This document shows, in pieces, positions 6,526-55,879 of a stretch of DNA of 64,000 bases. A program made the position numbers and the translations under genes. Source of the DNA: Bolinopsis microptera (lineage: Eukaryota > Ctenophora > Tentaculata > Lobata > Bolinopsidae); NCBI RefSeq assembly GCF_026151205.1, contig NC_087082.1:19120494-19184493 (forward strand), in the 5' to 3' direction. Every line of letters starts with the position of its first letter. Position 1 is the stretch's first letter. The notes under the pieces were generated by a model that searched no databases, was not told the origin of the DNA, and saw nothing but the letters and a program-made list of their open reading frames with translations.

Positions 6526-6801
6526 GTGAGTGCTGCTTGCATACATAGTGGCCGTGAGTGTCAGGGCTTTTGGAGAGTGGGACGTCATGAGAAGTCGGAT
6601 AAAGAAATATATTGCAGAGATAGAGGCCGTGAGTATGAGAGATCTAGGCGATTGGGAAGTCATGAGAAGTCGGACAAAGAGATATATTGCAGAGAAATAG
6701 GCTGTGTTAGTGAGAGATCAGGGCGAATGGGAAGACGGCGAGAATTTAAGAGATGCCGTGAAGGTAAAAGCAAAAGAAAAAAACTTTATAAAAGGGCTTA
6801 A
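6526..6801 (+). CDS. Short basic repeat-containing ORF in palindrome arm (hypothetical)
   Basis: A 91-codon frame, nearly identical in the mirrored arm at 12414-12689 (minus). It contains an internal repeat of roughly 25 residues, with HEKSDKEIYCR occurring twice, and ends in a lysine/arginine-rich tail. The nucleotide sequence itself is a degenerate tandem repeat of roughly 75 bp (AGAAGTCGGA blocks), so the open frame may simply reflect the repeat. In the indel-rich copy (about 930-1190) the frame is broken. I do not recognise the protein. It could be a remnant of a transposon ORF or non-coding. Confidence 0.2.
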   Translation: MSAACIHSGRECQGFWRVGRHEKSDKEIYCRDRGREYERSRRLGSHEKSDKEIYCREIGCVSERSGRMGRRREFKRCREGKSKRKKLYKRA

Positions 6802-6837: not shown

Positions 6838-7898
6838 AGTTACGTACGTTTTTGGTACGTTTTGGTGAGTTTGGCAGGGCGTGCTCAGGACAACTGCATC
6901 GAGTGCGTCCTCCTCCAGCTCAGCATTGAGTTATCGTTTGTCGGAGTGTAGCCCGGAACCGGTGGCGTGTCTGGGTACTGTTCCATGGAACTTCCTAGAC
7001 CAACTTTGAAACTGTCTAGCAATGTGGTACTCCGGAGCTCCGATGGGAGCACGTTGAAGAGCTGAGCTGCTCTAACTCTATAGCTGTTGTCGTAATCTGT
7101 TCTTACCGACAATTGTGCGCTTTTGTTCATGGCTGGGATCTCTGCCTTAATACCATGCCTTTGATGAGACTTGAACTCGAAACCCGTATCGTTCGGAGCA
7201 TGTTCATTAAGAATTTTCCATACATGAATAATAGAATAACATTAACGCTCTCTCCGCCTCTGAAGAGACATCAACTTAAGCTTCTTCAACCTGTCCCAGT
7301 ACTGGAGATCACGGCAGCCAGATATCTTTATAGTAAAGGATCTTTGTACAGTCTCCAGCTTTTGTATCTCTGTGACTTTTGCAGGGTTTCAGACTGGACA
7401 GCAGTACTCTAGCTTGGAGCGAACCATGCTTTTGTATAAAGTCAGCATGACTAATTGTGACCGGTCTCTAAAAGCACTCAAAGTCAAAGCCGCCATTTTT
7501 CTAGCTCCTTGAACTGTCTTCTCAATGTGAGGACCCCATGATCTACTGCTGCTAACATACGCTCCAACGTCTCTGACAGTTTCCTGTGGTGATATTGCGT
7601 GTCCTTTTGGTGTAGTATACTCAACAGTTTCTGGGTAGAACAGGAGCTCTCTTAGAGCTTTTGATCCATTCAGGGGGTAGTTTACAACCTCAAACTTCTG
7701 TTCGTGTAGCTCCATGTTGTTAACACGTGACCACTCGATGACTATGTTGAGATCATCTTGCAGTAACTCTACACTACTCATTCCTTGGATAGCCCCAATC
7801 AGCTTTGTGTCGTCTGCAAAGCTGAATCCGTTACTATAGCTAATACTGTTCAACAGATCCTTGATGTACAGAATAAACAGGATCGGTCCTAGGACTGT
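6838..7898 (-). mobile_element. LINE retrotransposon fragment, 3' part of reverse transcriptase
   Basis: The minus strand encodes the C-terminal half of a non-LTR (Jockey/CR1/L2-like) polymerase. The 7389-7853 frame contains FADDTKL, the catalytic YxDD-type box, and ends in SKLEYCCPV, the conserved thumb/connection motif of these elements. The rest continues with frameshifts through a WDRLKKL/LQRRRER region to a terminal frame at 6885-7130 ending near LSWRR. The N-terminal endonuclease and most of the RT are absent, so it is 5'-truncated and dead. The mirrored arm lacks exactly this segment (junction near 12383), so it is either a late insertion on the left or a deletion on the right. Confidence 0.8.
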
Positions 7899-8626
7899 TT
7901 TAAGTTTCTAACTCACATCAGAAAGAGAACAAAAGCCCTGTGCTTCAAAATCATTCCTAGTTTATCTAGGCTAATGATCATCAATCAACATTCAACACTT
8001 CTGCTTTTTGCCAAAAGCGAATAAAAGGCCCCTTCTGTGTCCACTGTCTTGACGATTCTCAGTATGATCATACATGAGTCTATATAGTTTGACGTTATGT
8101 GTTTAACGCACAAATCCCCAGTCTCACAGAGTTACGGGCTCCAGCAATCGCTCACAAACCAACTAGACCTCTCGAAATGAAAAAAATGAGAACAAGGTTA
8201 CGATAAAAACAGATTATCAAAATTGATTGGAAATAGAAGGATACTATTCCAAGATTATAGCAACGAAGTTCATGTCGATGATCTTTAGCTTGCTCATTTG
8301 TATTTACATCATTTGTACAAGACTAGATGGTAGCCATGTTCTGTGTCCTAAACCTAACTTTAGTGTGCATGTTATCTATTTTGTTGGTCTCAGTTTAAAC
8401 CTGAAAGCCATTGAATATGTTTGCCACTGCTTCTCAGCTGATCATAAATAATTTAAAATAGGGTTCAGTGTTCTGACCATTTGTGTATGTAGATGAAGCA
8501 AGGTCAGGAACCCAGCACGGTGAAGGATTAGGCCGGTTATCTAGCAAAGATCTCTGTCACTATACTTTTGTTGCTCAGTATCATTAGTATCATCATTGAA
8601 GATTGTGCATACACAACTTTATTAAG

Positions 8627-11485: not shown

Positions 11486-13897
11486 TTAATAAAGTTGTGT
11501 ATGCACAATCTTCAATGATGATACTAATGATACTGAGCAACAAAAGTATAGTGACAGAGATCTTTGCTAGATAACCGGCCTAATCCTTCACCGTGCTGGG
11601 TTCCTGACCTTGCTTCATCTACATACACAAATGGTCAGAACACTGAACCCTATTTTAAATTATTTATGATCAGCTGAGAAGCAGTGACAAACATATTCAA
11701 TGGCTTTCAGGTTTAAACTGAGACCAACATAAAAGATAACATGCACACTAAAGTTAGGTTTAGAACACAGAACATGCCTACCATCTAGTCTTGTACAAAT
11801 GATGTAAATACAAAATGAGCAAGCTAAAGACTGAAAGTATAGACGCTCGCAACTACCATGAAAGAAACAACTGCAAAGATTGGATGCCTAAGTAATGTAA
11901 TAAAGCAACCCAAGTAAGTGCCTTTAATAAATACCTTCGTGATGTGTACAAGCAGAGCAGGTGGTATACTATTTAAAATGTCAAAAGATTATCGACATGA
12001 ACTTCGTTGCTATAATCTTGGAATAGAATCCTTCTTTTTCCAAAAAATTTTGATAATCTGTTTTTATCGTAACCTTGTTCCCATTTCTTTCATTTCGAGA
12101 GGTCTAGTTGGTTTGTGAGCGATTGCTGGAGCCCGTAACTCTGTGAGACTGGGGATTTGTGCGTTAAACACATAACGTCAAACTACATAGACTCATGTAT
12201 GATCATACTGAGAATCGTCAAGACAGTGGACACAGAAGGGGCCTTTTATTCGCTTTTGGCAAAAAGCAGAAGTGTTGAATGTTGATTGATGATCATAAGC
12301 TTAGATAAACTAGGAATGATTTTGAATCACAGGGCGTTTGTTCTCTTTCTGATGTGAGTTAGAAACTTAAAACTTTATATTTATATTATTAATGCGTTAA
12401 TTAACAATCCTTGTTAAGCCCTTTTATAAAGTTTTTTTCTTTTGCTTTTACTTTCACGGCATCTCTTAAATTCTCGCCGTCTTCCCATTTGCCCTGATCT
12501 CTCACTAACACAGCCTATTTCTCTGCAATATATCTCTTTGTCCGACTTCTCATGACTTCCCAATCGCCTAGATCTCTCATACTCACGGCCTCTATCTCTG
12601 CAATATATTTCTTTATCCGACTTCTCATGACGTCCCACTCTCCAAAAGCCCTGACACTCACGGCCACTATGTATGCAAGCAGCACTCACGTCTCACATCG
12701 TCATACAAATGACAATTTATAGCTGTTAAGAATCATAAAGAAGTTATAAACATAATTCATCAAAAAAGTAAAATCGAGCTGTGAACACGATTATCAGTAT
12801 TCAATTAGTAATGGAAAGCATATCATGTCACCAGCACATAATTTATATTATATGTGCTGGTTCTCACGATGATATATTAGCAAGGAATCATTTTACTTCA
12901 GAGCAATCGTAACCATTGTTATTTTATTCATTAGAGCTAGACCCTGTTAAGTTGTTTGCCCAGTTATGATATGCTATTAGGATATCACTGGACTTTATTG
13001 CAGACGTTTTTGCCGACTCAATCAATCATAATCACCTAATATGATCTGTTGATTCGGACTGCGGACTGTTTTAACGTGTATGATCCTAATTTCTGCATAC
13101 AGTAATTCTCCTGGTCACGATCAAGTAAATGAGTAGGTGAAATGAGTGTGCCTTACTAGACTTCAACAATAAACTTATAAAGGTGAGAAGTGTGTCTCAC
13201 TGAAAATGTCTAAATACTTAAATAGAATTGAAAAGAATGTCTGAATAATCTGGGCGAATAAATGTAGTGTCGTATAATAATATCACTTTACAATAAATCC
13301 AAATTCTCGATACTTGCTTGATTGAACGTACTGAAAACTTCATAAGAATATACTAAAAGGGGACCCTGGTAATAAGCTTGTCAGCCCTTAAATAGGCTGC
13401 TGAAATGGGTGACTCATTCACGCGTGACTACATAAAATCCTTTACTTCCGCCTACTTACACGTAGTGCTGTAAAATGTAAAGATAAGTGCAACTAAAATC
13501 TATATGAATGTAACCTTGCACTAAAAGGGCTCTAAAAGATGCTCAATACAAAACCTACGAAATTACTTTACCCTTGTGGACTATGTAATGAAGTAACTAT
13601 TTAACTATAATGAAAACTGTGCTAAAAATCAAACTTAACACAATAACACTTGACCCTAATAATTTGACCCTGATCCTACTTTACTACAAAACGAAGTTAG
13701 TAAGTATCCTCCGCTGACCGCTATTCCCGCACACAGAATCAAATGCTTAAATCGCCTGGCAAATCTGATGAAATTCTACCCAGTTTCAAAGTAAGGCAGT
13801 TTGGGAGGCCTGGCACCTGAAAGATGTGAACCAGCTACTGAACTATTTATGGGCATTATTATGCTGTTAGAAAGTTCATCCTCGGTGTTCACGTTTA

Positions 13898-22378: not shown

Positions 22379-23697
22379 TTATGATACTACTAGAAAGCCC
22401 GTGGTAACAGGGATGAAGCTAGTAGTATACTCTGAAAGTTTTAATTGCATCAAAAAATATCCATACCAACCTAAGACACAGCCGATTTAAATGTTAAACA
22501 CTTTAAACACAACTTAATTACCATAAAACCAATAAAGCGATAAAAATGCTGTTCCAACAATCATTCATGCACGTGCGCGTTCAACGCTTTTACCATGGTT
22601 ACTTTGCAACTACATATTTCTCATATATTTGCACGTGGGCGGTACTACATACAAAAATAATCTTTTGAATTATAATATAGAAGTTACTGCAGAAACCTGG
22701 GTGGATAATGATGTGGTTGTGTGTGTAGGTATTAGCCCGGGGAGGCTGTGTGAGCTGTGCATACTCCACATGCTCTTCTTTTGGGCGCTCTGCAGATCAG
22801 GGAGAGTGGGTTAACGTTAATTAACACTGTAATTAACAGTAATTAATGGTAATTAACACTGTAATTAACAGTAATTAATGGTAATTAACAGTAATTAATG
22901 GTAATTAACACTGATCAGCGAACCTATCACCCTAGAGTCTTACCGGGAGTATACTCTGTCTTGGAACTGTATAGCTTTTCCTCGTCATCCTGAAAGGGAA
23001 CAAATATTGAGATTATCAAATAGACTACCTAAATAGCTGGGTAATAATAGAGTGTAACGAGGTTTGTATCCTGACTGGGGGCTTACCAGATATTTTAACC
23101 TTGGTAACGAGGTTTGTATCCTGACTGGGGGCTTACCAGATATTTTAACCTTGGTAACGAGGTTTGTATCCTGACTGGGGGCTTACCAGATATTTTAACC
23201 TTGGTAACGAGGTTTGTATCCTGACTGGGGGCTTACCAGATATTGTAACCTTGGTAACGAGGTTTGTATCCTGACTGGGGGCTTACCAGATATTTTAACC
23301 TTGGTAACGAGGTTTGTATCCTGACTGGGGGCTTACCAGATATTTTAACCTTGGTAACGAGGTTTGTATCCTGACTGGGGGCTTACCAGATATTGTAACC
23401 TTGGTAACGAGGTTTGTATCCTGACTGGGGGCTTACCAGATATTTTAACCTTGGTAACGAGGTTTGTATCCTGACTGGGGGCTTACCAGATATTTTAACC
23501 TTGGTAACGAGGTTTGTATCCTGACTGGGGGCTTACCAGATATTTTAACCTTGGTAACGAGGTTTGTATCCTGACTGGGGGCTTACCAGATATTTTAACC
23601 TTGGTAACGAGGTTTGTATCCTGACTGGGGGCTTACCAGATATTGTAACCGGACACTTTCAGTCGACAAAGCGCTCATAGCTAGTTGTAGTTCGTTT
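22379..23697 (-). CDS. 3' exons of a split gene; tyrosine-rich tail with ITIM-like motif
   Basis: Four minus-strand exons join in phase: 23637-23697, 22944-22989, 22697-22789 and 22379-22431 (stop TAA). Borders are TTTTCAG|A..CTG|GTAAGC, CTTTCAG|G..CCG|GTAAGA, CTGCAG|A..CAG|GTTTCT and CTTTCAG|A. A possible further upstream exon is 24042-24076 (donor GTAAGT, phase fits). The joined C-terminus is charged and tyrosine-rich: DDEEKLYSSKTEYTP, then EEHVEYAQLTQPP, ending FLVVS. VEYAQL fits the ITIM pattern [SIVL]xYxx[IVL], so this could be the cytoplasmic tail of a receptor. No transmembrane or extracellular exon was found, so the gene's identity is unknown. A second frame is also open through the last three exons but looks less protein-like. 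The first intron shown is almost wholly a 50-bp minisatellite. Confidence 0.5.
22815..22916. repeat. AT-rich GTAATTAACAGTAATTAATG repeats in intron
   Basis: About five short units of GGTAATTAACA and GTAATTAATG, lying between two exons of the minus-strand gene. Confidence 0.8.
23053..23650. repeat. 50-bp minisatellite, 12 copies, starting at a 5' splice site
   Basis: Nearly perfect 50-bp units (GGTAACGAGGTTTGTATCC, TGACTGGGGGCTTACCAG, then ATATTTTAACCTT). On the minus strand each unit contains ATATCTG|GTAAGC. This is the same string that ends exon 23637-23697 and begins its intron, so the exon tail is effectively the first unit. Confidence 0.95.
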
Positions 23698-30397: not shown

Positions 30398-30563
30398 GAC
30401 TATGGTAACTATGGTAACTATGGTAACTATGGTAACTATGGTAACTATGGTAACTATGGTAACTATGGTAACTATGGTAACTATGGTATCCTTGTCAGGA
30501 GTTCTATGATAAAGTTATTGAGATGGGACCAAGTGATGAAGATTTTGTGCTTTGTTGAGACTT
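30398..30563 (+). repeat. TATGGTAAC array plus duplicated tail of the sulfotransferase CDS
   Basis: After the stop codon come about ten 9-bp TATGGTAAC units (30401-30487), then a near-exact second copy of the last 73 coding bases, stop included (30487-30559). The array sits between two copies of the CDS tail. Confidence 0.9.
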
Positions 30564-31323: not shown

Positions 31324-31440
31324 CGGTATGGTAACTATGGTAACTATGGTAACTATGGTAACTATGGTAACTATGGTAACTATGGTAACTATGGTAACTA
31401 TGGTAACTATGGTAACTATGGTAACTATGGTAACTATGGT
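31324..31440. repeat. TATGGTAAC array 2
   Basis: About 13 perfect 9-bp units, same orientation as the array after the sulfotransferase. Confidence 0.95.
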
Positions 31441-31726
31441 GCTATCTAGCTGTATTATACCGTGATATTGTAACGCGGCTAATGAGACTAATGAGACTAA
31501 TGAGACTGGCTTGTTAGCACTGTATAGGCTTATTTCAATAAATAGTTTCTGCTTGGTTTCCCAAAGAGAGTGCTCGACTGCAGCTAAGATCACAGTTCAA
31601 TAATGAATTCTGCTCTCTCAATTACAGTTTATGGCATGCTACCTTTAGCTTCTTCTTTGAGAGAACTATAAAAATGTTCGTATCTTACATATTCTAACAC
31701 GTCTATAATCCCACGGTTAGCAATAT

Positions 31727-31921
31727 ATGGTAACTATGGTAACTATGGTAACTATGGTAACTATGGTAACTATGGTAACTATGGTAACTATGGTAACTAT
31801 GGTAACTATGGTAACTATGGAGGAGTTTGGTAACTATGGTAACTATGGTAACTATGATAATTATGGTAACTAAGGTAACTATGGTAACTATGGTAACTAT
31901 GGTAACTATGGTAACTATATG
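31727..31921. repeat. TATGGTAAC array 3
   Basis: About 20 units with one AGGAGTTT interruption near 31821 and a few variants (TATGATAAT, TAAGGTAAC). Confidence 0.95.
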
Positions 31922-36800: not shown

Positions 36801-39800
36801 AAAATTGAAATTGGAATAGGTTAACATTCTTATAGTCTTATACAGGCTGTTAATCTACCTTGAGAAGAATACATTCCAGAATGTCATCTTCGTCCCAGTC
36901 ACATTCCTCGCATATCGAGACCAGTCTCTCCTTCTCCATCGGACCTGGATATCCCTCAACATGAATAAAGTGTAAACTATATTTTCTAAACATCTGCTAT
37001 AAACTGTTAAGAAGCATGTTTTATCATGTCGAGCTGTTAAACAAGTAAACTAAAGCTTAGATTCTACAAAGCACATTTAGAGTTTATGCACATGTGAAAC
37101 TGAATTTGAGTCCCACATATCAGAATATGCGTGATTAAATTACTCAGAGTTAAATAGAACATGCTAACCAATGATGGCCTCCACTTTATTAATGGTTTCC
37201 AGCTCTCTCAAACTGAATACTCTCTCCTCTGAAGTTGTTGGCTCTGGTTTCTCTGTTTCAGGCTCCTTTTCTGGCTCTTCTCCGTGTAACATTATTTCTG
37301 CTAACTTTTTTACACACTGCGTCTTTTTACGTACAACTGGTTCTGAAATAATGTTAAATTTCTCAAGATTATTGTCAAAATATGATGTGAAGTTAAGTTT
37401 GGTGAAGAAAATAATATCATGTATCTTAATACTAGTACTACGATATACATTATTATATTATGTAGCTAGTAATAAACTTACTAGGAGGAGACACATGGTC
37501 CTTTGTCACGTGGTCCTCAGTCACGTGGCCCTGAGTCACGTGGTCCTCATAGACAACAACATAAGGCTCTAGGAGATGAGGAGAGATGACATGTTGGTTG
37601 GGTGATGTGATCTCCTGATCAGGTTGTGGTGATGGTAGGGGTAGCTCTTTATCACATCTCAGTGCTGTTAGCTTCTTTGCTTCAGTGTGAGCACTCTGGG
37701 GTAAGAAGTTGTTAAAATAAAACTGAAATATTAAGGTATTAAGAAATTACCAGGAACTAACAACACAGGTTAGTATGACGGTATTGTGGTCTAACTAAAG
37801 GATTTAATCAATTATTTAACATGAAGTATACTGTTAGTTACCCAATATTCTGCTGAATTGTGATATGAAACTTTCAACAACGTCTTTAGCTTCCTTCGGC
37901 ATATCTCCACCAAGCTGAATACTTCAGACACATATCTTATCATTGTAGGCTCACTGGAGACCCTCCCCAGATCTCTCTCCATTTCTATTTCCTCATCAGA
38001 ATCCTCCAACTCCGGAATGTCTATATCGTAACCAGATAAATCCACAGGAATGTCTCTGTCAGGCCTATCATTGGACACAACATTCCTCATGCTAGCGTTA
38101 TTGCATCCCTGGGGTACCCCTGTTTTTATATATTTCTCATTATCCCAAGTGGACAGCTTCTTAACACTATCCTCTCTCAGTTTATGAATGTCGATTACCA
38201 CACTGAAATCCTCTTCTATTTCTGTGGATTGCTGTTTTTCCAATTTATCTAGCAACTCATCCTCCATCTCCCTGGCTGCTATGTCTTCTAGCCACACACT
38301 CATGTCTTGGTCCCAGTCCTCATTTTCGTCAGACTCCGCATTTCTTAAACCCCAAGTAGTGTCATCTTGTTTTAGACAACTAAACTGAGATATATTTTCC
38401 TTGGATTTTTTTCCCGACATCCCTAAATCGCCAGATCCCGAGTCCCATACTGCCCTTGGAACTGGGGATTGAGTTCTTACTTTAGGGCATTTACTATTGT
38501 TATTGTATTCCCTATTCTTAACACTTGTACCCTCATTTTGAGGGGTACCACGTTTTTCAGAACCCTTATCTCGATCTGCTGGGTCGTCAGAAGAGTCTGA
38601 TAAAATATACGGGACAAGAGAACCCTCAGTAGATTTCCCATTCTTTCCTCTTTTATCATTGTTCTTATTCCTATCATTGTTCTTATTCTTATCATTCTTA
38701 TCATTCTTATCATTCCTATCATTCTTCACAGTGGTGAAAGGAACGTATCCTGCAGCATCGCTGTTCTCTCCTGCACAGTGGGAATGCTTTAGTTTTGACA
38801 TGTAGGCTGGCCCAATGACTTTTTCTACAGTTGGATTTTTCTCGTATCGTTTGAGTGCAGCCACCAACTGACCCTTGTTTAGACCATGTTTAGATTTCCT
38901 GAAAAAAGAAACTGGAATGTATACAGTCATACCTCGAGGGAGGAGAAATCCAAAGCAAAAAAAACGAGTAGAAAGAGTAAAGCCACTGATATTTTAAGAC
39001 TATTCCTGTTTTCACTACATAAAAAGCTCTTTTAAATAAAGCATTGGCACATTGCCAACTTGAACGATATACACCAAACAGTATCGCAAGCGCTAACCTG
39101 CAGTAATTAGTAAAGAGCTAACCTGTAGTAATTAGTAAAGAGCTAACCTGTAGTAATTAGTAAAAAGCTAACCTGTAGTAATTAGTAAATAGCTAACCTG
39201 TAGTAATTAGTAAAGAGCTAACCTGTAGTAATTAGTAATGAGCTAACCTGTAGTAATTAGTAAAGGGCTAACCTGTAGTAATTAGTAAAGAGCTAACCTG
39301 TAGTAATTAGTAAAGAGCTAACCTGTAGTAATTAGTAAAGAGCTAACCTGTAGTAATTAGTAAAGAGCTAACCTGTAGTAATTAGTAAAGAGCTAACCTG
39401 TAGTAATTATTAAAGAGCTAACCTGTAGTAATTAGTAAAGAGCTAACCTGTACTAATTAGTAAAGAGCTAACCTGTAGTAATTATTAAAGAGCTAACCTG
39501 TAGTAATTATTAAAGAGCTAACCTGTAGTAATTAGTAAAGAGCTAACCTGTACTAATTAGTAAAGAGCTAACCTGTAGTAATTATTAAAGAGCTAACCTG
39601 TAGTAATTAGTAAAGAGCTAACCTGTAGTAATTAGTAAAGAGCTAACCTGTAGTAATTAGTAAAGAGCTAACCTGTAGTAATTATTAAAGAGCTAACCTG
39701 TAGTAATTAGTAAAGGGCTAACCTGTAGTAATTAGTAAAGGGCTAACCTGTAGTAATTAGTAAAGAGCTAACCTGTAGTAATTAGTAAAGAGCTAACCTG

Positions 39801-42800
39801 TAGTAATTAGTAAAGGGCTAACCTGTAGTAACTAGTAAAGAGCTAACCTGTAGTAATTATTAAAGAGCTAACCTGTAGTAATTAGTAAAGGGCTAACCTG
39901 TAGTAATTAGTAAAGGGCTAACCTGTAGTAATTAGTAAAGAGCTAACCTGTAGTAATTATTAAAGAGCTAACCTGTAGTAATTAGTAAAGAGCTAACCTG
40001 TAGTAATTAGTAAAGAGCTAACCTGTAGTAATTATTAAAGAGCTAACCTGTAGTAATTAGTAAAGGGCTAACCTGTAGTAATTAGTAAAGGGCTAACCTG
40101 TAGTAATTAGTAAAGAGCTAACCTGTAGTAATCATTAAAGAGCTAACCTGTAGTAATTAGTAAAGAGCTAACCTGTAGTAACTAGTAAAGAGCTAACCTG
40201 TAGTAACTAGTAAAGAGCTAACCTGTAGTAATTAGTAAAGGGCTAACCTGTAGTAATTAGTAAAGGGCTAACCTGTAGTAATTAGTAAAGAGCTAACCTG
40301 TAGTAATTAGTAAAGGGCTAACCTGTAGTAATTAGTAAAGGGCTAACCTGTAGTAATTAGTAAAGAGCTAACCTGTAGTAATTAGTAAAGAGCTAACCTG
40401 TAGTAATTAGTAAAGGGCTAACCTGTAGTAATTAGTAAAGAGCTAACCTGTAGTAACTAGTAAAGAGCTAACCTGTAGTAATTAGTAAAGGGCTAACCTG
40501 TAGTAATTAGTAAAGAGCTAACCTGTAGTAACTAGTAAAGAGCTAACCTGTAGTAATTAGTAAAGAGCTAACCTGTAGTAATTAGTAAATAGCTAACCTG
40601 TAGTTATTAGTAAATAGCTAACCTGTAGTTATTAGTAAAGAGCTAACCTGTAGTAATTAGTAAAGGGCTAACCTGTAGTAATTAGTAAAGGGCTAACCTG
40701 AAGTAATTAGTAAAGAGCTAACCTGTAGTAATTAGTAAAGAGCTAACCTGTAGTAATTAGTAAAGAGCTAACCTGTAGTAATTAGTAAAGAGCTAACCTG
40801 TAGTAATTATTAAAGAGCTAACCTGTAGTAATTAGTAAAGGGCTAACCTGTAGTAATTAGTAAAGGGCTAACCTGTAGTAATTAGTAAAGAGCTAACCTG
40901 TAGTAATTAGTAAAGAGCTAACCTGTAGTAATTAGTAAAGGGCTAACCTGTAGTAATTAGTAAAGAGCTAACCTGTAGTAACTAGTAAAGAGCTAACCTG
41001 TAGTAACTAGTAAAGAGCTAACCTGTAGTAATTAGTAAAGGGCTAACCTGTAGTAATTAGTAAAGGGCTAACCTGTAGTAATTAGTAAAGAGCTAACCTG
41101 TAGTAATTAGTAAAGGGCTAACCTGTAGTAATTAGTAAAGGGCTAACCTGTAGTAATTAGTAAAGAGCTAACCTGTAGTAATTAGTAAAGAGCTAACCTG
41201 TAGTAATTAGTAAAGGGCTAACCTGTAGTAATTAGTAATGAGCTAACCTGTAGTAACTAGTAAAGAGCTAACCTGTAGTAATTAGTAAAGGGCTAACCTG
41301 TAGTAATTAGTAAAGAGCTAACCTGTAGTAACTAGTAAAGAGCTAACCTGTAGTAATTAGTAAAGAGCTAACCTGTAGTAATTAGTAAATAGCTAACCTG
41401 TAGTTATTAGTAAATAGCTAACCTGTAGTTATTAGTAAAGAGCTAACCTGTAGTAATTAGTAAAGAGCTAACCTGTAGTAATTAGTAAAGAGCTAACCTG
41501 TAGTAATTAGTAAAGGGCTAACATGTAGCAATTAGTAAAGCGCTAACCTGAACAGTTGATTAATTTTGAACTTCCATTCTGTGGGAGGCTCAATGAAATA
41601 GCAGTTGTACCCTTGCTCTACTCCCTGCAGGGTCATATTAGCATCATCCCTCATCGAATTACATTATAACTACCAATACTATTAATGCTTAATACTAGTA
41701 GACGTGCATCCTGGGTTTTGACAGGATATGCCAGCTTGATATGTATTGTAAGTAAAGTAAGTAAGTTATGTGTACTTAGTAATACTTAATGTACAATAAT
41801 TACTACTTTATTAAAAAGTTGTTCTACTTTATTATTTATTTTTATTAGAATCTGTCTTCACTGAGTCTATTCAGAAACAATCAGAAATTTTAATGAAAGA
41901 ACTATCAAATCATGAGACTCAATAACACTACACGAATCCACCAGATTACTTTACTAAACTTACAGCAATACAAACTTTACTTTACTACTTTACTAAACTT
42001 ACTGCAATACAAACTTTACTTTACTACTTTACTAAACTTACAGCAATACAAACTTTACTTTACTACTTTATTAAACTTACAGCAATACAAACTTTAATAT
42101 ACTACTTTACTAAACTTACAGCAATACAAACTTTACTTTACTACTTTACTTAACTTACAGCAATACAAACTTTACTTTACTACTTTACTTAACTTACAGC
42201 AATACAAACTTTACTTTACTACTTTACTAAACTTACAGCAATACAAACTTTAATATACTACTTTACTTAACTTACAGCAATACAAACTTTACTTTACTAC
42301 TTTACTTAACTTACAGCAATACAAACTTTACTTTACTACTTTACTAAACTTACAGCAATTATACAAACTTTACTTTACTACTTTACTAAACTTACAGCAA
42401 TACAACCTTTAATATACTACTTTACTAAACTTACAGCAATACAAACTTTACTTTACTACTTTACTTAACTTACAGCAATACAAACTTTACTTTACTACTT
42501 TACTAAACTTACAGCAATTATACAAACTTTAATATACTACTTTACTAAACTTACAGCACTACAAACTTTACTTTACTACTTTACTAAACTTACAGCAATA
42601 CAAATTTTACTTTACTACTTTACTAAACTTACAGCAATACAAACTTTAATATACTACTTTACTAAACTTACAGCAATACAAACTTTACTTTACTACTTTA
42701 CTAAACTTACAGCAATACAAACTTTACTTTACTACTTTACTAAACTTACAGCAATACAAACTTTAATATACTACTTTACTAAACTTACAGCAATACAAAC

Positions 42801-45800
42801 TTTACTTTACTACTTTACTAAACTTACAGCAATACAAACTTTACTTTACTACTTTACTAAACTTACAGCAATACAAACTTTACTTTACTACTTTACTTAA
42901 CTTACAGCAATACAAACTTTACTTTACTACTTTACTAAACTTACAGCAATACAAACTTTACTTTACTACTTTACTAAACTTACAGCAATACAAACTTTAA
43001 TATACTACTTTACTAAACTTACAGCAATACAAACTTTACTTTACTACTTTACTAAACTTACAGCAATACAAACTTTACTTTACTACTTTACTTAACTTAC
43101 AGCAATAACATAAGGTCTCATCTCCCAGAACTGAGTGTTAGTGTTGTCCACTATTACTGGAGACAATCCTTCAGACAACGCTCCCTCCACTAATTGGAAT
43201 GTGTGATAGTTAATAGTTCAGTTAATAAATTAGTATCTGGGAATCCATTAGTGAACAGTGATATGCTATTATAAAGAAGAAACCTATCAAAATACTACAG
43301 TAGTATGTCTGTACCACGTTGTTGATTCCACGTGTGAGCTATCTGTAGATCAGCATGAACAAACCGGTACCTGGGCGATGGTTCAATAAGTTAATGAGAT
43401 ATGAACAAAATACATGTTCAGTTATTGTTATTCTCCTTATAAATCTAAACAAGATTTTAAAGCTGAACATATTTGAAACCACACGCTGAAGCCAATGTTG
43501 AAACAGTAAAATATGATTTTAGTGTTTGCAAAAGTCTAAAAAAACTGGTAGACTTACTCATTAGCTTCATTAAGCATAAAAAAGTCATCAGAGGAGAAAA
43601 TGTCTCCACTACCAAGTTCACTGATTATCTTTCTGAAATGGTAAAAGCGTTGATCATATCTTTTGTGAAGTATCTGGTGTCAAATTACAATGTACATTGT
43701 ACAATTGCTATAACTATGATGAAATGAAGGCTAGCAATATCCCTTCTAAAATACTACTACAGTAAAACCCCGATTTATCGCCCCTCTGATTTACCGCAGC
43801 CACCTCTTTCCCCCAAATATAGGGCTTAACATGACGTATAATGTAAAGAAACAAAGCCCCGATTTACCGCAGATGTTTTCTTTCTCCCAAACTCTGCGGT
43901 AGATCGGGGTTTTACTGTACTGCTTGGTATGCTATTTAAGTATATACTTCGCATAAGTCGTCTTTCCACTGCCTGACAATCCTCTCATGATGTACAGAGC
44001 TTTTTTGTCGTGATATCCTGATGAAGATAAAGTTACTGAGAGCTACAAATACAGCTTGAACTGATTACCAGTAGTGTCTATGATATGTGAAATGATCTGG
44101 TATCAAACTTTATCCCCAAAATCTACAATAATTTCATAGACAATATTATAATTATATTATATATGGTTCAAACCTTCAAAAGAATAAGAAATTTAATTTA
44201 AAATAATTAGTCAACCGGAAGGGAGCAAGTTCCAAATACCTGGTATTTTTACTTTATCTGGATTAAGTCGCCTAGTATCTCTAACCCTGTTTGACACTGT
44301 AAAGTTTGTCCCTTGAGCCGTAAGATTTGATTTTTGACTCCAGGTCCCTCTATTATTCTGTACTGTCCTGGTTGGCAGAGAGTTACTATAGTTACACTAC
44401 TAGTTACCATAGTTACACTACTAAACAGGTATATTATTCTGTACTGTCCTTGTGTTGAGTTACTATAGTTACACTACTAGTTACCATAGTTACACTACTA
44501 GTTACCATAGTTACACTACTAAACAGGTATATTATTCTGTACTGTCCTTGTGTTGAGTTGTCTGCAATAAAATTGATGCGATATCTTAATCTCTCTATAT
44601 TATATACTAATTAGTTTAGTTAGCAAGATTCAAATTATAATTTTCTTTAATTAATTTTACACTGTGTGTTATTAAGCCAACACAAATTTTAATTGAATTT
44701 TGTTCTTTGCATTCCACTTTTAATTACCGATCAGGAGTAGGTTGAGAATTTTGAACTCCCATGCTGTCTTGAAGTTGGCGCAGTATCTGAATGGCTTCTC
44801 CTCCTGGGGATGCAAATTATAAGTCATTCCATATCTCTTAATTAACAGAAAAATTGACTAGCTAGCTGTTTCCATTTTGTATTAGATCTGTCTTATTTTA
44901 ACTGCATTTTATTGACATACCATTTCCATGCATGTCATGAAACACCCCTGAAACAACATTTTCTTCAAGTGTGCCTTGAAAGATGTCAATAAGCTCCCTC
45001 AAGTTAGGATTGAACGCCATCTCTAAAGGATAAAGTTATGGTAAATGAGAAAAGACAATTTTTTGAGAAAAGACAATTCTATTATTTATAACCAATTAAA
45101 TATGCTCGCTATACACTTAACTTTTAGATACCGCATATATATGTACAAATTAACTCATTTAAATACCAAATACCAATAATAAATAAAATATAAGCATGAA
45201 GAATGAAGAGGTCCAAAACCAACCCAAGCATAATACCAGATTAAAACCAACATTGAACACATTGTCATCGGAAGCTGCAAGCTTATTATCGTATGATTAA
45301 ACTGATATTTAATAAATAATTAAAAGAACCAATTTTAAAGTTGCTATACTGAAGCCTTTAGCTCCAAAAATACACCCATTATGCTCACTTAAAAACAACT
45401 CTAAATCAGTAGGCGGGCACAAAAAAGCACTACTAGCAATTGTGTCCTTTACCCTCCTACATAATTTGAACATTTTTGTGGCTAACTCATTGAACAACAT
45501 TTGAATTAAAATGTGTCTAGTATTAAAAGATTCAGTAAGTTTTTTTTTTCATGTACGCTGTTCACTGTAGTAAGTAAATGCAAACCAAACTTTTTCGATC
45601 AGCTGCGCGCCGAACCAGTGTTGTACTAGGTAAAAATTGTGTATATTTTGTTCATTTTTGAGTGTAAATTAATTTATAAATTTATCACAAATTATTTTAT
45701 TATAATATAACCACTTATGTGAAATGTTTATTTCGACATTAAATATAAATTGATTGTGGGTATAAAATAAAATTTGTTTTACTATTAATGCACCACACCG

Positions 45801-48206: not shown

Positions 48207-49064
48207 ATGACAGAGGGTCACGACGTGATACAAATAATTCAACGCTGGCATAAAAACAGTTTAGTTGCGCACGTTCTGAGACCAGAAATGGGACAGTACT
48301 TGGACAAAAAAACGGCTGGCAAAAGGATCCAGTTGCCTGTAAGAGCTTTACTAGTACCCGAAATACCGCTTCGAAAGCACCGCCCCAAGCTGAGCACAAA
48401 AGTATAAATTGTTTCTGGATTTTCACAACAAATCAGCTTGTACATGATACTATTGACTATAATTGTGCATAATATTAGGATGTAAAAGTTTTAATACATA
48501 ATAAATAATATAATAGTAATACACGTTAAAAAGTTAAGTGTCTAGTATTTGTGTTTCTTATTATTTGAATTAGAATTATTAGAATTAGAATCAAATTTAC
48601 ACAGCAATACAATAATAATAGTAAATAATTTAGAGATGCTTCGATCTGCTATGCAGGCAGCAGGATATTCAAATCAGTCAAAAACTTTTAATAGAGTACC
48701 CTTCTAAGGACTAGGAATCAAAACATTATATAGTAAATCGATAGTAAGTTAATGAGTATAAAGTATGTTATATTGGTATGGTTGGTTAAAACATTGAACT
48801 ATGGGCATGAAGATTGAAGCTAACCATTTAATTATTACGAAAATTACATAGATACCCACTTTGTCATTTCATCAGAATTATTTACAGTTATATACAAGTT
48901 ACTTAAGACAGTATTGATTGCAGAAAGCAATACCTGTTGACGAACTGGACCTAAATCTTGCACACACCACCAACGATGAAGACAGGGGTGATGATGTTAA
49001 TGATGAAGATGATGAAGTTGATGATAAGGTTGAGAATGTAGAGGAAGAGGTTTCAGAAGAGTGA
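48207..49064 (+). CDS. Small two-exon protein with acidic C-terminus (hypothetical)
   Basis: Exon 1 48207-48401 starts at ATG in GGAATGACAG. A preceding TTGTAG at 48186 could be the acceptor of a 5'UTR intron. Exon 2 48924-49064 follows GATTGCAG. The donor AAAA|GTATAA and the acceptor join in phase 0, giving about 111 residues: a basic first half (EGHDVIQIIQRWHKNSLVAH, PLRKHRPKLSTK) and an Asp/Glu-rich tail ending VEEEVSEE. AATAAA at 49118-49123 follows the TGA by 54 bases and is a plausible poly(A) signal. No membrane segment is seen. I do not recognise the family. The basic/acidic layout suggests a nuclear or chaperone-like protein, which is only a guess. If unspliced, the frame ends at 48407. 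Confidence 0.5.
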
Positions 49065-49199: not shown

Positions 49200-52100
49200 C
49201 CATTTTAGAATAAAGGAAAACAGGTTATTAAACGGTTTTTAAATTTTGCCCCTTTACCCTCCCACAGAGGGAGAAAAATCCCCCTGAAAAAAATTTTTTT
49301 AAAATGAAAAAAAATTTTTGGGGGGGAAAAAAAATGGGCATTTGGAAAAAGGGGGAAAAAGGCATTTTGTGGGTTTTTTAAAACCCAAATCTTTAAAACC
49401 AATGCAAAAATTTAAATTGTTTTGGTTTTAAAAATTTTTCCTTTTTTCTTATTATTTTTTTAAATTGGCAATTTTTAGGTTTTAAAATTAAAAATTTTTT
49501 TTAAAAAAATTATGGGTAAAAAAGTTAAAAGGGGAAAATAGTGTTTTTATTTTAAAAATTTTAAATTGTTTTAAATTTTTCCCCTCTTTAATATAGTATT
49601 TTTAAATTTTTTGTTGGGGCGAGGTTTTTCAATAAAAAATTTTTAAAGTTTTTGGCGGAAAAAAACATTTTTTAAAAATTAAAGGGGGATTTTTAAAAGT
49701 TTTTTATTTTTAAAAAAAATTGGGCATGGTTAAAAACCCTTTTTAAATTTTAAAAATTTTCAAATTTACCCATTGGGGCTTTCATCAAAATTTTAAGAAA
49801 AAGTTTTTTTAAAAAAAGGGGTTTTTGGAAAATCCCTTTGCAAAACGGAAAATTTTGCCCCCCAAAGGAAACTTGTTTTAAAAAAAAAGAGAAAAGTTGG
49901 ATAAGGTTAATTTAGGGATTTAAAAAAACCAAAAAATTTTTTTTTTTTAAAAAAATTTTACAAAAAATTTAAACCCTTTAAAAAGTTTTGAACGGATTTT
50001 TTAAAACAAGAACTTTGGGGAAAAAATAGGAATTTTTAAAAAAAAGGTTTTTTGTTGAAAAAAAATTTTCCTTTTTCCCCCCTTGTCGAAAAAAATTTTT
50101 AAAAACGAGGGGCCAGAAGGAAAAAAACACTCACAGGAAAAAAATTTGTTTTATTGCGGGACTTTTTTTTTTTCAGGGTTTTGTTCAAAAAAAAAGGGGA
50201 ATATCTTTAAGTAAGGGGCCCCCCCAAGGGGAAAACTGGGGTAAAAAGAGAAAAATTTTTTTTTAAAGAGAAAAAGGGAAAAATTTTAAAAGAGAGGGGA
50301 ATGGGGGGGGGGTTTTTTAAGGAGAAAAAAGGGGGGAAAAAAGTAAAAGAAAAGAAATTTAATGAAAAAAAAAAAAAAATTTGAGGGGGAGAGAACAAAA
50401 GAGAATTTTGAGGGAACCCCAAAAGTGGGGAAATTTTTAAAAAAAAAAAAAGATGAAAAAAATTTTAAGAGAATTAAAAGGGAAGAAAATTTTTTAAGAA
50501 AAGGGGAAAAAAAAGAAAGGGGGGGGGGAAAAGGTTTTTTGAGGGGGGGGGGGGGGTTTTAATTTTACTTGGAAAAAGGGTAGAGAAGGAAAGGGGGGGA
50601 TGTGAAAAAAATTTAAAAAAATTTTTTTTTAAAAAAGGGGGGGGATTGGGGGGGGAGGCCCCGGAAAATTTTTTAGATTTTTTGAAGGAAAAGAAAGAAA
50701 AGAGAAAAGATTTTTTTGGGAAAAAAAGAAGAATTTTGAAAGATTTTTGGGAAAATTTTGGTTAAAGAAAAGAGGGGACCCGTAACAAAATAGCCGCCGG
50801 GGGGGTTTTTTAAAAGAGAATTTTTAAAAGAGGGGAAGGGGGGGCCCCAAAAAACCCGAAAGGAGAGGGGAGAAAAGGAAAAAAGTGAAAAAAAAAACCG
50901 AGGGAAAAAAGAGGAAAAAAATTTTTAAAAAAAAAAGGGAGGGGGGAGAAAAGTTTGAAGCTAGGGGGAAGGAGGTGAGGGGGGGGGGGGGAGAAGGAAA
51001 GGGTTTGGGGGGAAAAAGTGAAGGGTAGAAGGAGGGGGGAGAGGAGGGAGAAGTGAGGGGGGGCGAAGGAGGGGATTTGGGGGGAAATTTTTTAAAAAAG
51101 AGGAAGAAACCGAGGGGGTTTAAAGGGGGAAAGAAAATAGGAGATGAAAACCCCCGAGAGGTTTTAAATTTTTTTGGGGGGGGGGGGGAAAAAATTTAAA
51201 GAAAAAAAAAAAAAAAAAGGAAAAAAAAAGAGAAATTTTGGAAAAATTTTTAGGAAAAGGAGAAAAGGAAAAATTTAAAGGGGAAAAAAAGGGGGGGGTT
51301 TGGAAAGGGAAAGAGAAGGGAAAAAGGGGGGGTTTTTAGAAAAAAAAAGAAAAAAGGAGGGAGGGCGAAAAGTTGAGGGGAGGTAATGGGGGTTTGGGGG
51401 GAAAAGAAAGAGATTTTTAAAAAGGGAAAGTGGGGTGGAGGAAGGGAAAAAGGAAAAAAAAAAATTGAGGATGTTGAAAAAAGGTACCCTTTAAGAAAGG
51501 AAAGGCAAAATTTAAAGGAATAAAAAAATAGGAAAAAGGGTTTTTGGGGGGAAAATTTAAAAAAGGGGGAGGGGAAAAAAAATTGCGGGGGGAAATTTTT
51601 TGGGAATTTTTGGGGGAGGGGAAAAAAAATTTTTTTTTTTGGGGGGAAAAAAAGGGTTTTGGGAGGCCAATTTTTTGGGGGGTTTTGGAAAAAAGAGCGT
51701 AAAAGGGTTTTTTGAAAAATAAATTTTAAAATTTTTGGTTTTTTTTGGGGAAAAAGAAAAGAGAAGGGGAAGGGGAAGGGTTTTAAAAGGGGGGAAAAGG
51801 TGGAAAGGAGTTGTATGGACGGGGGCAAAAGGAGGAAAAGGGGGAAAGGGGGGGAAAAAGGGGGAAAGGGGATTTAAGAGGGGGAAAATTTTTTTGGGGG
51901 AAGGGGGGGCAAGGAAAAAATTTTTTTGAGAAAGGGGGGGGGAAAAGGAAAAAAAAAAGGGGGGGAGGAGGGGGAAAAAAAATTAAAATTTTTCCGGGAA
52001 AAAGGGAGGAAGGGGAAGGGGGGAAAGGGGAGGGAAAAAAAAGAAAAAAGAAAAAAAAAATTTTTTTGGTTTTTTAGGAAAAGGGGAAAAAAAAAAAGCA

Positions 52101-53250
52101 AAAGGGAAAAAGGGGGAAGGGGAAAAACCCTTTTTTTAAAAAAGGAGGAGAAAAGGAGGAAGGAAAAAAAAGGGGGGGGGAAAAAAAAAATTTTTAAAGG
52201 GGGAAAGGAAAGGGGAAAGGGGGAAAGGGGAAAAAGGGGAAATTTTTGGATTTTAAAGAAGAAAAATGGAAAAAGGGGATTTGAGAAAAAAAAGGGGGGG
52301 TTTGATGGGAGCCCGGGGGGGGGAAAAGAAAAGGAGGGGGGAGGGGGGGGAAACCCCCAAAAGGGGGGGGGAGGGTTTTTTAAAAAGGAAAAAAGGGAGG
52401 GGGGAGAGAGGAGTTGACTGGGGGGGGGGAAATTTTAAAGAAAAGGAAAAAGGAAGAAAGGGGGGGGGGAAAAAGAGAGAGGAGAGAGAGGGAGGGGGGA
52501 GAGGGGGGGAGGAGGGGGGGAGGAGGAGAGGGGGGGGGAAAAGAGGAGGGGGGGAGAGGGGGAGAGAGGGAGGAGGAGGGGGGGGGGGGGGGAGAGGAGG
52601 AGGGAGAAAAAGGAAGGGGAGAGGAGGGGAAGAGGAGAGAGGGGGGGGAGGAGGAGAGAGGAGAGGAGAGGGGAGAGGGAGGGGGGGGAAAGGAGGAGAA
52701 GAGAGGATGGGGGGGAAAAGGGGGAAAGAAAAAGAGGGGAGGGGGGGAGGGGAAAGGGGAGGGAAGGGGGGAGAGAGAGGGAGGGAGAGGAGTGGAGAGG
52801 GGGAGAGAGAGGGGGGGAGAGGGAGAAAAGGGGAAAGGGGGAGGAGGAGGGGGGAGGAGAGAGGAGAAAAGGGGGGGAAGGAAAAAGGGGGAAGGGGGAG
52901 GGGAGAGGGGGAGAGAGGGGGGGAAAAAAAGGGGCAAAATTTATGGGCTCCGGCGGCCCCGGGGCGAAAGTTAGAGTAAGAGGGGGAAGCGTCCCGGCGG
53001 GAAGCAGGAGCAGCATGGCGCAGAGCGGTTTTTCCTTTATTTTTGGGGGGGGGCCCCATTAAATTTTTTTGGTTTTTGGCCAAAAATTTTCCCCAAAAAA
53101 TTTTTTAAAAAAAAAATTATTTAATTTTTTAAATTTGGGTTTTTAAAAATTTTTTTTTTTTTTTAAAAAATTTTTTTTGGGCCAATTTTCGGGTCAAAAT
53201 TTGGGGTTTAAAACAAAATTTTTTTTTTTTTTGCCTTTTTAATTTTTTTT
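49200..53250. other. Homopolymer-inflated, probably corrupt consensus (severe)
   Basis: From about 49200 the sequence turns into runs of A, T and G (AAAAATTTTT, GGGGGGAAAA) with almost no ordinary dinucleotide mix. 50200-52940 is nearly pure purine on the plus strand. A small GC-rich island (52945-53030) stands out. The long Lys/Gly/Arg and Pro/Ser/Phe frames here are consequences of the composition. I support no gene. Real GGAA-type satellite DNA may underlie it. Confidence 0.7.
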
Positions 53251-55879
53251 TAATCCATCCTTTTTCCCCAACTAATTGGTTCGGGTTTTAGTATGTTGAA
53301 AGCTGATTTATGTTGGGAAACCCAAGATTGACCAAATAATAAAAAATCAAGAATTTCGTAAAATTTAAAGCAACTTTTAAACAATTTTATTTTGCCCAAA
53401 AGCCGCGCCCAAAAATATGGGGCCCTAGGCGAAACTCATGATATAAAAGTTTTAGGAAATTTTATTTGTTTGTACTTCGAAGAGAAAATTTATATTGGAT
53501 TTTGTTTTTGGGGGCAAGTGATTTCAAGTTTAATATATTAAATATTAAACTATAAATAAAGGGCTTTTCAAAATTTGCTCGCCCAAAAATTATCACGTGT
53601 CTTTGGTTTTTTCGGGTTTTTTAGCGAAAAAAAAGCGGGTTTTAATAAAAACCCCGTCCGGTCCCAACTTGATCTAACCCTAAACATACCCCAAGTATCC
53701 ACAACCCTAACGGGCCCTAAAAAATCGATTTTGTGTTTAACTGCGTCACGTGCCCCAAAAAAGTTTTTTTCCCTTTAATCTCCGGGCCGGGGGGAAGCAT
53801 TTTAATTTTTTAATAGGGGGTGGTTCGGAATCAGCGTCCAAAAAAAAAACTGAACAAAGTCTTTCATATCCCCATATCAAGGCCTTTTTCAAGAATTTTC
53901 TTAAAATTTGGGCAAGCGATTTAAGGGGGGCGTAATTAAATGGTTGATCAAGACAAAAATTTTGTTCCCTGCATCAAACAATATCACTCGATCAAATTTG
54001 AAACTTGTTATTTTTCCGTAAGGGTTTCATGCTTTGATAAAAATTTACAAATCTAAATTTTCTGCACGAGAAAGTTTGATTAAAAAATTTCCTGAGGATG
54101 AATCGATCTACAGTTCACAATACTTTTCATGATCAAATTTTCAAAAAAAATCCCATGATTCGAAAAAACGGTCAATACCATTCAAAGTTATAGCCGTGGG
54201 TGATAAAATCAATATTTATTTTAAATTTGAGGGACTTTTCCGTGAACATAAAGGTGCTAACTCCGGGGGGTTCCCTTTCTGTTAAATTTAAGAGAGGGGC
54301 CGGTCTTACCTAAAAAAAACGACCCCTATTAAAATTTTTTGTATTTGGACTTTTGGAAAATATTTGGATCAGAAGGATAATTAAAAAACAGGATCATAAA
54401 GTCAGGAATCATAAAAAATTCCCGGGTATAAATACCCCGGGTCTAAAAACGGAAAGGGAAAAGGCCGCATTTGTTTTTAATGAGATTGTGGTTTAATGTG
54501 ATAGTGGTTTTTTGAGGTGTGAGGGTTCATAATGATTAATGAAATGTGGTTTCTAAAGTAACTGACAGACGGTCAGAAGCCTACAATCTACATCGACAAT
54601 TTTTAAAAAATTTAAACGAAATATTTAAAGAAAAGTCAAAATGTAAATCCAAACGTCCATAGCTAATAGATTGGACCACCGTGAGATCAAAATGTACCCC
54701 CATGCAGATAAACTCGCGAACATGCAACTTTAATTGGCACTCTGTCTGTCCCTAATGTATGCAAAAAGGAAATTTTTAAAAATTTTGCTTTATCGAACTT
54801 TTCGTGAATCGTTTCGGTTGTCCCGAAAAAATTAGATTTTTAGATAAAATAGCTATCCCCATCCGATGTTATGTGTGAACTATTGGGGTAAAACATAAAA
54901 AACTTTACAAAGCGGGTCATTAATATGATTGGAATTTAACCAAATTTTAATTAATTAACAAAAATAATGGTCTAAATTAAAAAAAAATTACCCTAATAGA
55001 AGGCATAATGTAGCGACGAAGATTGCGCTGGTATTGTAAGCAATTGATCGCAAACTGGCAGGTTTCCTGAATGTTGATATGAAAATTTATCGGATCAAAT
55101 TTGGGAAAGGGATGCGATTTAAAGACATACCAAATATTTTTCACAGGATTTTTTGAACGAACCCCTTTGGGAGGTATTTTTAATTTTGCCTTTTGTTTAA
55201 TTTCTGTCGTCGGTTTTTAAACTATATTTTCATTTTTTGCTTTTACGTGCTTTCTTGTTTTTGTATTACGTAAATTATGTATAAAAAAAAACTATCAAAA
55301 AAAAATTTTACTAAATGTAAAAAAAAAATTTGGAAAAAAAAAAAGCCCCAAAAAAATTTTCTGATTTTTAAGGTTTTGAATGCCTTCGCGTTAGTTGTAA
55401 TGTCCCCTTTTAAAAAATTTTAAACCGCTCTCGCAGTTCCCGTAAAGTCCGTAGGTATATCAAGCGCTCCTTTAACTTAAAAACTATACACAAATCGTCG
55501 GATGATATCATCTCTACACTCGGCGACTGTCACGGGACTTTTTAACCGTTCTCTGTAGTCCTGAAAGACTATTAAAATGGTCCCCCAGGAGAAACGGGGG
55601 AAAAACGTTCCCATACGTGATATTTTCAATTTTAAAAAAGTTTGGGCTAAATTTTGTTAGGGTAAGGGTTTCAGCATATCAATATGCTTCGTTGGTTTAG
55701 GGGTTTGGGTTGGGGGTAGGAATTGGGGTTTGGGTTTGAATAGGCTTCAATTTTTGAGACTAGGGCGTGTTAAAAAATTTTTCGGGACGTCGAGGGGTTT
55801 TGAGTGATTAAACGTCATTTTTTTTGGGAGGTATAGGGACAAATGTTTATATTCATTATTTGGCTACTAGCAGTATTTT

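Follow-up and report, generated by a model that had tools for sequence, protein, structure and literature searches.

Minisatellites of tandem 5′ splice sites at exon ends in the ctenophore Bolinopsis microptera

Repeats that carry splice signals

In amphioxus, the Adh3 gene and the globin genes BflGb6 and BflGb9 contain 'mirage' minisatellites, in which exon-intron boundaries are duplicated and which are reported not to interfere with regular splicing (PMC3087553). A comparable array is found in a 64,000-nucleotide stretch of the genome of Bolinopsis microptera (contig NC_087082.1, positions 19,120,494 to 19,184,493 of the forward strand; hereafter, the window), where most of a 2.6-kb intron is made of tandem copies of a 25-bp unit that opens with a 5′ splice site motif. 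As in the mirages, the repeats cross an exon-intron boundary and many carry AG/GT signals; a homogenised interior, edge units that differ and a unit size between 10 and about 160 bp are further common features (PMC3087553). The amphioxus arrays are described at both kinds of boundary, 5′ and 3′, and the two BflGb6 haplotypes hold 6 and 3 units (PMC3087553), whereas those described here have 12 to 98 units, and three of them lie at donors (5′ splice sites) within a single 64-kb window. The class is already known, as the mirage minisatellite, and what is gained here is scale and recurrence.

Other relatives are more distant. An interferon-induced transcript, that of gene 6-16/IFI6, reportedly owes multiple splice donor sites to a minisatellite. 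The units act as donors in that case too, but several of them are reportedly used there, while the internal donors of the present arrays bring stop codons. In UBC, dual-specific AGGT sites that recur in tandem are spliced stochastically; AG|GT (the bar marks the splice junction) falls within tandem units as it does here, but those units are coding, 228 nt long and frame-neutral, while the present ones are 25 nt long, intronic and frame-breaking (PMC10809524). Intron gain by tandem duplication that supplies the splice signals, once across an intron-exon boundary, has also been described in two reports (PMC4974935; PMC2812944). It differs from the present case, where an existing intron has expanded and there is no evidence of a new one. 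A case with as many copies was not found in the open-access literature, a negative of little weight, as subscription papers lay mostly outside the search.

An intron filled by a 25-bp unit

The features of the locus are as follows.

39088..41550, minus strand: tandem array of 98.5 copies of a 25-bp unit, sense unit GTTAGCTCTTTACTAATTACTACAG (Tandem Repeats Finder and reading of the units)
38899..41547, minus strand: host intron, 2649 bp, about 2457 bp of it array (gene finder and reading)
41548..41624, minus strand: upstream exon, translation GVEQGYNCYFIEPPTEWKFKINQLF(R), partly covered by a Pfam AAA_33 match (de novo prediction and reading)
37842..38898, minus strand: downstream exon, acceptor TTTTTTCAG|G at the 97th percentile (de novo prediction and scoring)
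41542..41547, minus strand: first GTTAGC, which from the reading frame would be the productive 5′ splice site of the upstream exon

Tandem Repeats Finder reports a period of 25 with 96% matches. When units are cut at a fixed step from the first donor, 98 full units are obtained, all of which open with GTTAGC; 97 close with CAG, and the consensus is matched exactly by 38. AG thus abuts GT directly, as a recursive splice site would have it, in 97 of the 98 units. This is in agreement with the first-pass annotation, which had proposed an intronic array of about 98 tandem AG|GT motifs. The only unit that does not end in CAG is unit 1, which ends in CAT. Consequently, the second site of the array reads CAT|GT and holds no acceptor. 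The edge of the array reaches 3 bp into exon 41548-41624, so that the repeat spans the exon-intron boundary, as mirage minisatellites do.

The sequence CAG|GTTAGCGCTT is present at both ends of the array and absent from its interior, as though the last copy had been the original donor. By eye, a block of 20 units reappears 32 units away with one difference; a comparison of the units as a string found no exact repeated run of at least 12 units. The unit is practically confined to this place. In the searched genome (264.65 Mb in 232 contigs, the window being part of contig C11), all 42 matches to the exact 25-mer fall within the array, as do 98 of the 99 matches to a 23-base version with up to three mismatches; the lone match elsewhere, on contig C12, has three mismatches. 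A mobile element of the Introner type was considered and rejected, as related copies elsewhere amount to that single match and the units of the other arrays described below are unrelated.

The host gene

Both exons flanking the array were recovered by a gene finder trained on this genome. The upstream exon terminates TTCAG|GTTAGC, its donor being the first GTTAGC of the array; the earlier proposal that the true donor is the first member of the array is therefore upheld, with the exon found de novo and the donor's use inferred from the frame. The joined exon translation matches Pfam AAA_33 (4.9e-14) over residues 8-115. This match crosses the junction of the preceding intron, which holds a 39-bp array, and ends about eight residues short of the junction at the 25-bp array. 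The latter junction is supported by the reading frame, the splice scores and what is expected of N4BP2 proteins, and lies outside the database match.

The host gene is an animal-type gene, which we take to be an N4BP2-type P-loop kinase. In Pfam, the last two exons alone retrieved nothing, and it was the joined domain exons that gave AAA_33. A first query of the PDB returned chance-level matches, one of them at E 0.89, and a second returned eight weak matches, including TsaE and nucleoside kinases, with a best E of 0.001. A search of the genome for a related gene gave six matches, all at the host-gene locus, and none elsewhere.

Strength of the splice signals in the unit

Early donor scores in this work came from a general matrix; the percentiles given here come from splice matrices that started from a general set and were then retrained on this genome, with the exons predicted in about 330 kb of it. 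With these, the donor CAG|GTTAGC of the unit stands at the 86th percentile among 176 predicted donors; among predicted acceptors, its CTTTACTAATTACTACAG|G reaches the 78th. Of the 32,568 GTs outside repeats, 0.3% score as high, as do 1.1% of the 33,435 AGs there. The splice motif of the unit is, therefore, no chance reading. The unit also has a TACTAAT box, which presumably resembles a branch point. The terminal acceptor at 38899 outranks that of the unit (97th versus 78th percentile).

The unit is an exception in this respect. The units of two other arrays of the window, both starting at exon ends, close with GCT|GTAAGT (39 bp) and CTG|GTAAGC (50 bp); they have no AG before GT and thus cannot be zero-length exons. 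In two further arrays, L029 and L030, the units have AG|GT with weaker acceptors (12th, 18th and 36th percentile), and it is the 25-bp unit that combines a fair acceptor with a TACTAAT box. The reading of the units as zero-length exons is consequently conceivable for the 25-bp unit, which has a good donor and a fair acceptor, and finds no support as a general explanation. That the 39- and 50-bp units do not share AG|GT counts against such an explanation and not against the use of the motif in this array.

The same arrangement at other exon ends

Two of the related arrays lie in the window.

41947..43107, minus strand: 29.6 copies of a 39-bp unit in the preceding intron of the host gene; the unit includes the exon's final 7 nt and the donor GTAAGT
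43101..43189, minus strand: exon; its translation closes with PYVIA at unit 1 of the 39-bp array (de novo prediction, Pfam)
23054..23650, minus strand: 11.9 copies of a 50-bp unit at another exon end; within the unit, GGTTA(A/C)AATATCTG and the donor GTAAGC
23637..23697, minus strand: exon (NELQLAMSALSTESVRLQYL); its final 14 nt are found again in the 50-bp array

In the first, the exon ends GTTATTGCT|GTAAGT and the units end GTATTGCT|GTAAGT, with 7 bases in common. In the second, exon 23637-23697 terminates GGTTACAATATCTG|GTAAGC and is followed by the array. Before GTAAGC, 9 of the 11 full units have GGTTAAAATATCTG, sharing 8 nt with the exon end (13 of 14 with one mismatch), and the other 2 have exactly GGTTACAATATCTG, sharing all 14.

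L029 and L030, both on contig C1, stand among the first places listed when the whole genome is searched for spaced triples of CAGGTRAG. L030 opens at a long open exon that ends TCACTGCTACCAG|GTGAGC, and its unit holds those 13 exon bases. L029 opens at a short exon-like stretch, a candidate coding sequence, that ends AATGCCAG|GT, with 8 shared bases; it belongs to a 57-bp array (L029/L031, C1:6658081-6664434 and beyond) that is more than 6 kb long and has a pair of CAGGTAAG-type donors in each unit.

De novo prediction placed exons at the junctions of all four arrays with a coding neighbor (25 bp, 39 bp, 50 bp and L030). The arrangement seen at the 25-bp array is present at three other coding junctions and in at least two other genes of this genome. 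The 25-bp array shares only CAG, 3 bp, with its exon end, compared with 7, 8-14 and 13 nt in its sister arrays. What these arrays have in common is the duplication of a 5′ splice site, which the exon end may or may not accompany, and not a zero-length exon. In B1, another sampled region, an array is found some 100 bp below a donor similar in sequence, which is only suggestive.

Donor choice and the reading frame

In all four of these arrays, the first donor leaves the exon open and no internal donor does. Extension of the exon to an internal donor adds an in-frame stop in every instance: 98 of 98 in the 25-bp array, 29 of 29 in the 39-bp array, 11 of 11 in the 50-bp array, and 14 of 14 in the fetched part of L030. 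Thus, either the productive donor is the first, or removal in steps must lead to the same product. The frame is consistent with regular splicing that is undisturbed by the 25-bp array, as would be expected of a mirage. By contrast, the suggestion that the array offers many equivalent donors fails, in the sense that none of the 98 internal donors could give the same protein.

Variation within the donor core

In units 2-98 of the 25-bp array, CAG|GTTAGC has no variant in 873 cells, while 62 of 1552 cells vary elsewhere in the unit. By columns, this sparing has a P of 0.006, or 0.017 when unit 1 is counted. Other arrays show no significant sparing by columns, with P of 0.39 for the 39-bp, 0.68 for the 57-bp and 0.98 for the 20-bp array of B1. 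Counts by cells, which are not independent, give a core that is less variable in the 57-bp array (42/1005 versus 213/2174) and in the 39-bp array (1/243 versus 23/810, leaving aside the partial unit at the end and two units of 42 bp), and more variable in the B1 array (21/288 versus 15/345). In the 57-bp array, whose units were cut without anchoring on the donor because anchoring hides mutated donors, one donor lacks its GT in 5 of 56 copies. The variant-free core of the 25-bp array is not taken as evidence of function.

Frequency of donor-word arrays

Throughout the genome, spaced triples of donor words are frequent: 939 matches for CAGGTRAG against 97 for the reversed word, and 1343 for AAGGTRAG against 147. 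The acceptor word TTTTCAGG gives 158 against 84 and CAAGGRTG 218 against 182. However, CAGCTRAG (185 versus 0) and CAGGARAG (234 versus 18) also exceed their own reversals, and the reversed word is therefore an uneven yardstick. Since raw matches count units, the listed places were gathered into arrays by the spaced words alone, on C1, the contig with which every list begins. Among the matches listed, this gives 8 arrays for CAGGTRAG, 4 for CAGGARAG, 3 for CAGCTRAG, 1 for GARTGGAC, 0 for CAAGGRTG and 1 for TTTTCAGG. All 100 matches listed for AAGGTRAG fall within one long array, at C1:1105103-1109104, which has a 38-bp spacing and this word in nearly all units, and they were not grouped.

Outside repeats, in a 324-kb sample, the words occur 18 (CAGGTRAG), 19 (CAGGARAG), 11 (CAGCTRAG), 8 (GARTGGAC), 10 (CAAGGRTG) and 35 (TTTTCAGG) times. 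After word frequency is considered, the excess of donor-word arrays on C1 has a P of 0.005 against all five controls and 0.001 against the acceptor word. Against the four non-splice words P is 0.04, and against the two nearest, CAGGARAG and CAGCTRAG, the 8 versus 7 arrays on C1 do not differ significantly (P 0.16). Two of the 8 donor-word arrays have similar units and are possibly not independent.

The 324-kb sample holds 74 arrays of at least three copies and a period of 9-200. Their edges coincide with predicted donors 4 times, against 1.2 expected from 2000 random placements of the 74 arrays (P 0.03), or 1.8 with a laxer exon set (P 0.10). Three of these four cases are in the window, itself chosen for one of them, and a B2 array at 73329-73464 was counted at a donor by the program alone. 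There is no clear excess at acceptors in this sample (2 versus 1.2 expected; 3 versus 1.9 with the laxer set). The exons counted were the higher-scoring ones, those more than 40% covered by repeats being dropped; the placement test also dropped exons opposite long open reading frames (ORFs), a filter aimed at a spurious donor case at B2 48297-48408. The gene finder, run with an exon penalty of 14, chains weak exons and calls pseudo-exons inside the 50-bp array.

Arrays are also found near acceptors, as three predicted exons have one 11 bp upstream. In B1 (41039-41353, that is, C1:5041039-5041353), an array of 52-bp units lies, by eye, beside the apparent acceptor side of an exon on the minus strand, in a gene presumed to be gelsolin-like. 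A general spread of arrays up to exon edges was considered and rejected: with arrays of at least two copies and 254 exons, 4 donors and 1 acceptor are covered, compared with 16 of 254 positions on each side 300 bases into the introns.

Possible origins of the 25-bp array

The 25-bp array is probably a mirage-type minisatellite, tolerated since its outermost donor still abuts the exon. A short stretch of the exon-intron junction, essentially its 5′ splice site, would have been duplicated in tandem and would then have expanded, partly by block duplication, to about 98 copies inside the intron. The first donor would be spliced to the strong acceptor at 38899 to give a normal mRNA, while products of internal donors would carry stops. 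Two observations weigh against this account: the sharing with the exon end is CAG alone, a much weaker duplication than in the other arrays, and a purely passive array need not show a variant-free donor core. It is improbable that this is an ordinary intronic minisatellite whose AG|GT motif and contact with the exon are coincidental. Arrays are, in effect, common (74 in 324 kb) and their clustering at donors is weak, but coincidence would have to extend to the exon ends matched in three other arrays, to two consecutive introns of one gene, and to the same donor context at both ends of the 25-bp array.

Recursive, or ratchet, splicing, in which the dual-specific AG|GT units would allow stepwise removal of the intron from the first donor to later units, is improbable as well. 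The good donor, fair acceptor and upstream TACTAAT of the unit would suit it, and two or three units could form a minimal step. Moreover, at 2.6 kb the intron is long for this genome, where predicted introns between confident exons have a median of 214 nt and a 5th percentile of about 50 (n=111; the gene finder has a floor of 40 nt), and tandem AGGT sites are spliced stochastically in UBC (PMC10809524). Nevertheless, the neighboring and third-junction arrays have no AG before GT, the acceptors of L029 and L030 are weaker, the first internal site of the 25-bp array is CAT|GT, and the terminal acceptor is stronger than that of the unit. A splice-donor-linked process, by which minisatellites in this genome would be born at 5′ splice sites or kept because of them, is a tentative and somewhat doubtful proposal. 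Tandem U1 binding sites might help a long intron. The 8 CAGGTRAG arrays on C1 among the matches listed (4, 3, 1, 0 and 1 for controls), the total matches for donor words (939 and 1343, against 158, 185, 218 and 234) and two further C1 arrays, both of whose fetched edges start at an exon-like end, point in this direction. However, the two nearest words exceed their own reversals as strongly as the donor words do and leave a P of 0.16, two of the 8 arrays may not be independent, edges at donors exceed random placement weakly, arrays lie near acceptors too, and the 39-bp, 57-bp and B1 20-bp arrays show no significant sparing of the core. A donor-linked birth of arrays is, in sum, possible and not established. 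The wider proposition, that 5′ splice sites are birthplaces of minisatellites and that many genes have 'poly-donor' introns, where U1-type sites number from tens to hundreds and where those whose unit is AG|GT may be shortened stepwise, is rather unlikely.

If such arrays are common here, they would be natural experiments on how the spliceosome chooses among dozens of near-identical donors, with the protein frame as reporter, and would also bear on the question of whether repeat expansion starts from splice junctions. With a predicted usable acceptor and donor in nearly all units, the 25-bp array would be a clean place to ask about stepwise removal.

Other features of the window

Four minisatellites (30399-30488, 31327-31440, 31726-31918 and 44381-44521) have common words of the GGTAACT type, which are weakly donor-like. 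One 75-bp repeat is present in opposite orientations at 6537-6734 and 12481-12678, and near it an ORF (7392-7907) matches RVT_1 below the cut-off of Pfam. Finally, positions 50001-54000 have purine-rich G/A runs and a strong GC skew (0.79 and 0.58), and are either low-complexity sequence or a poorly resolved stretch of the assembly.

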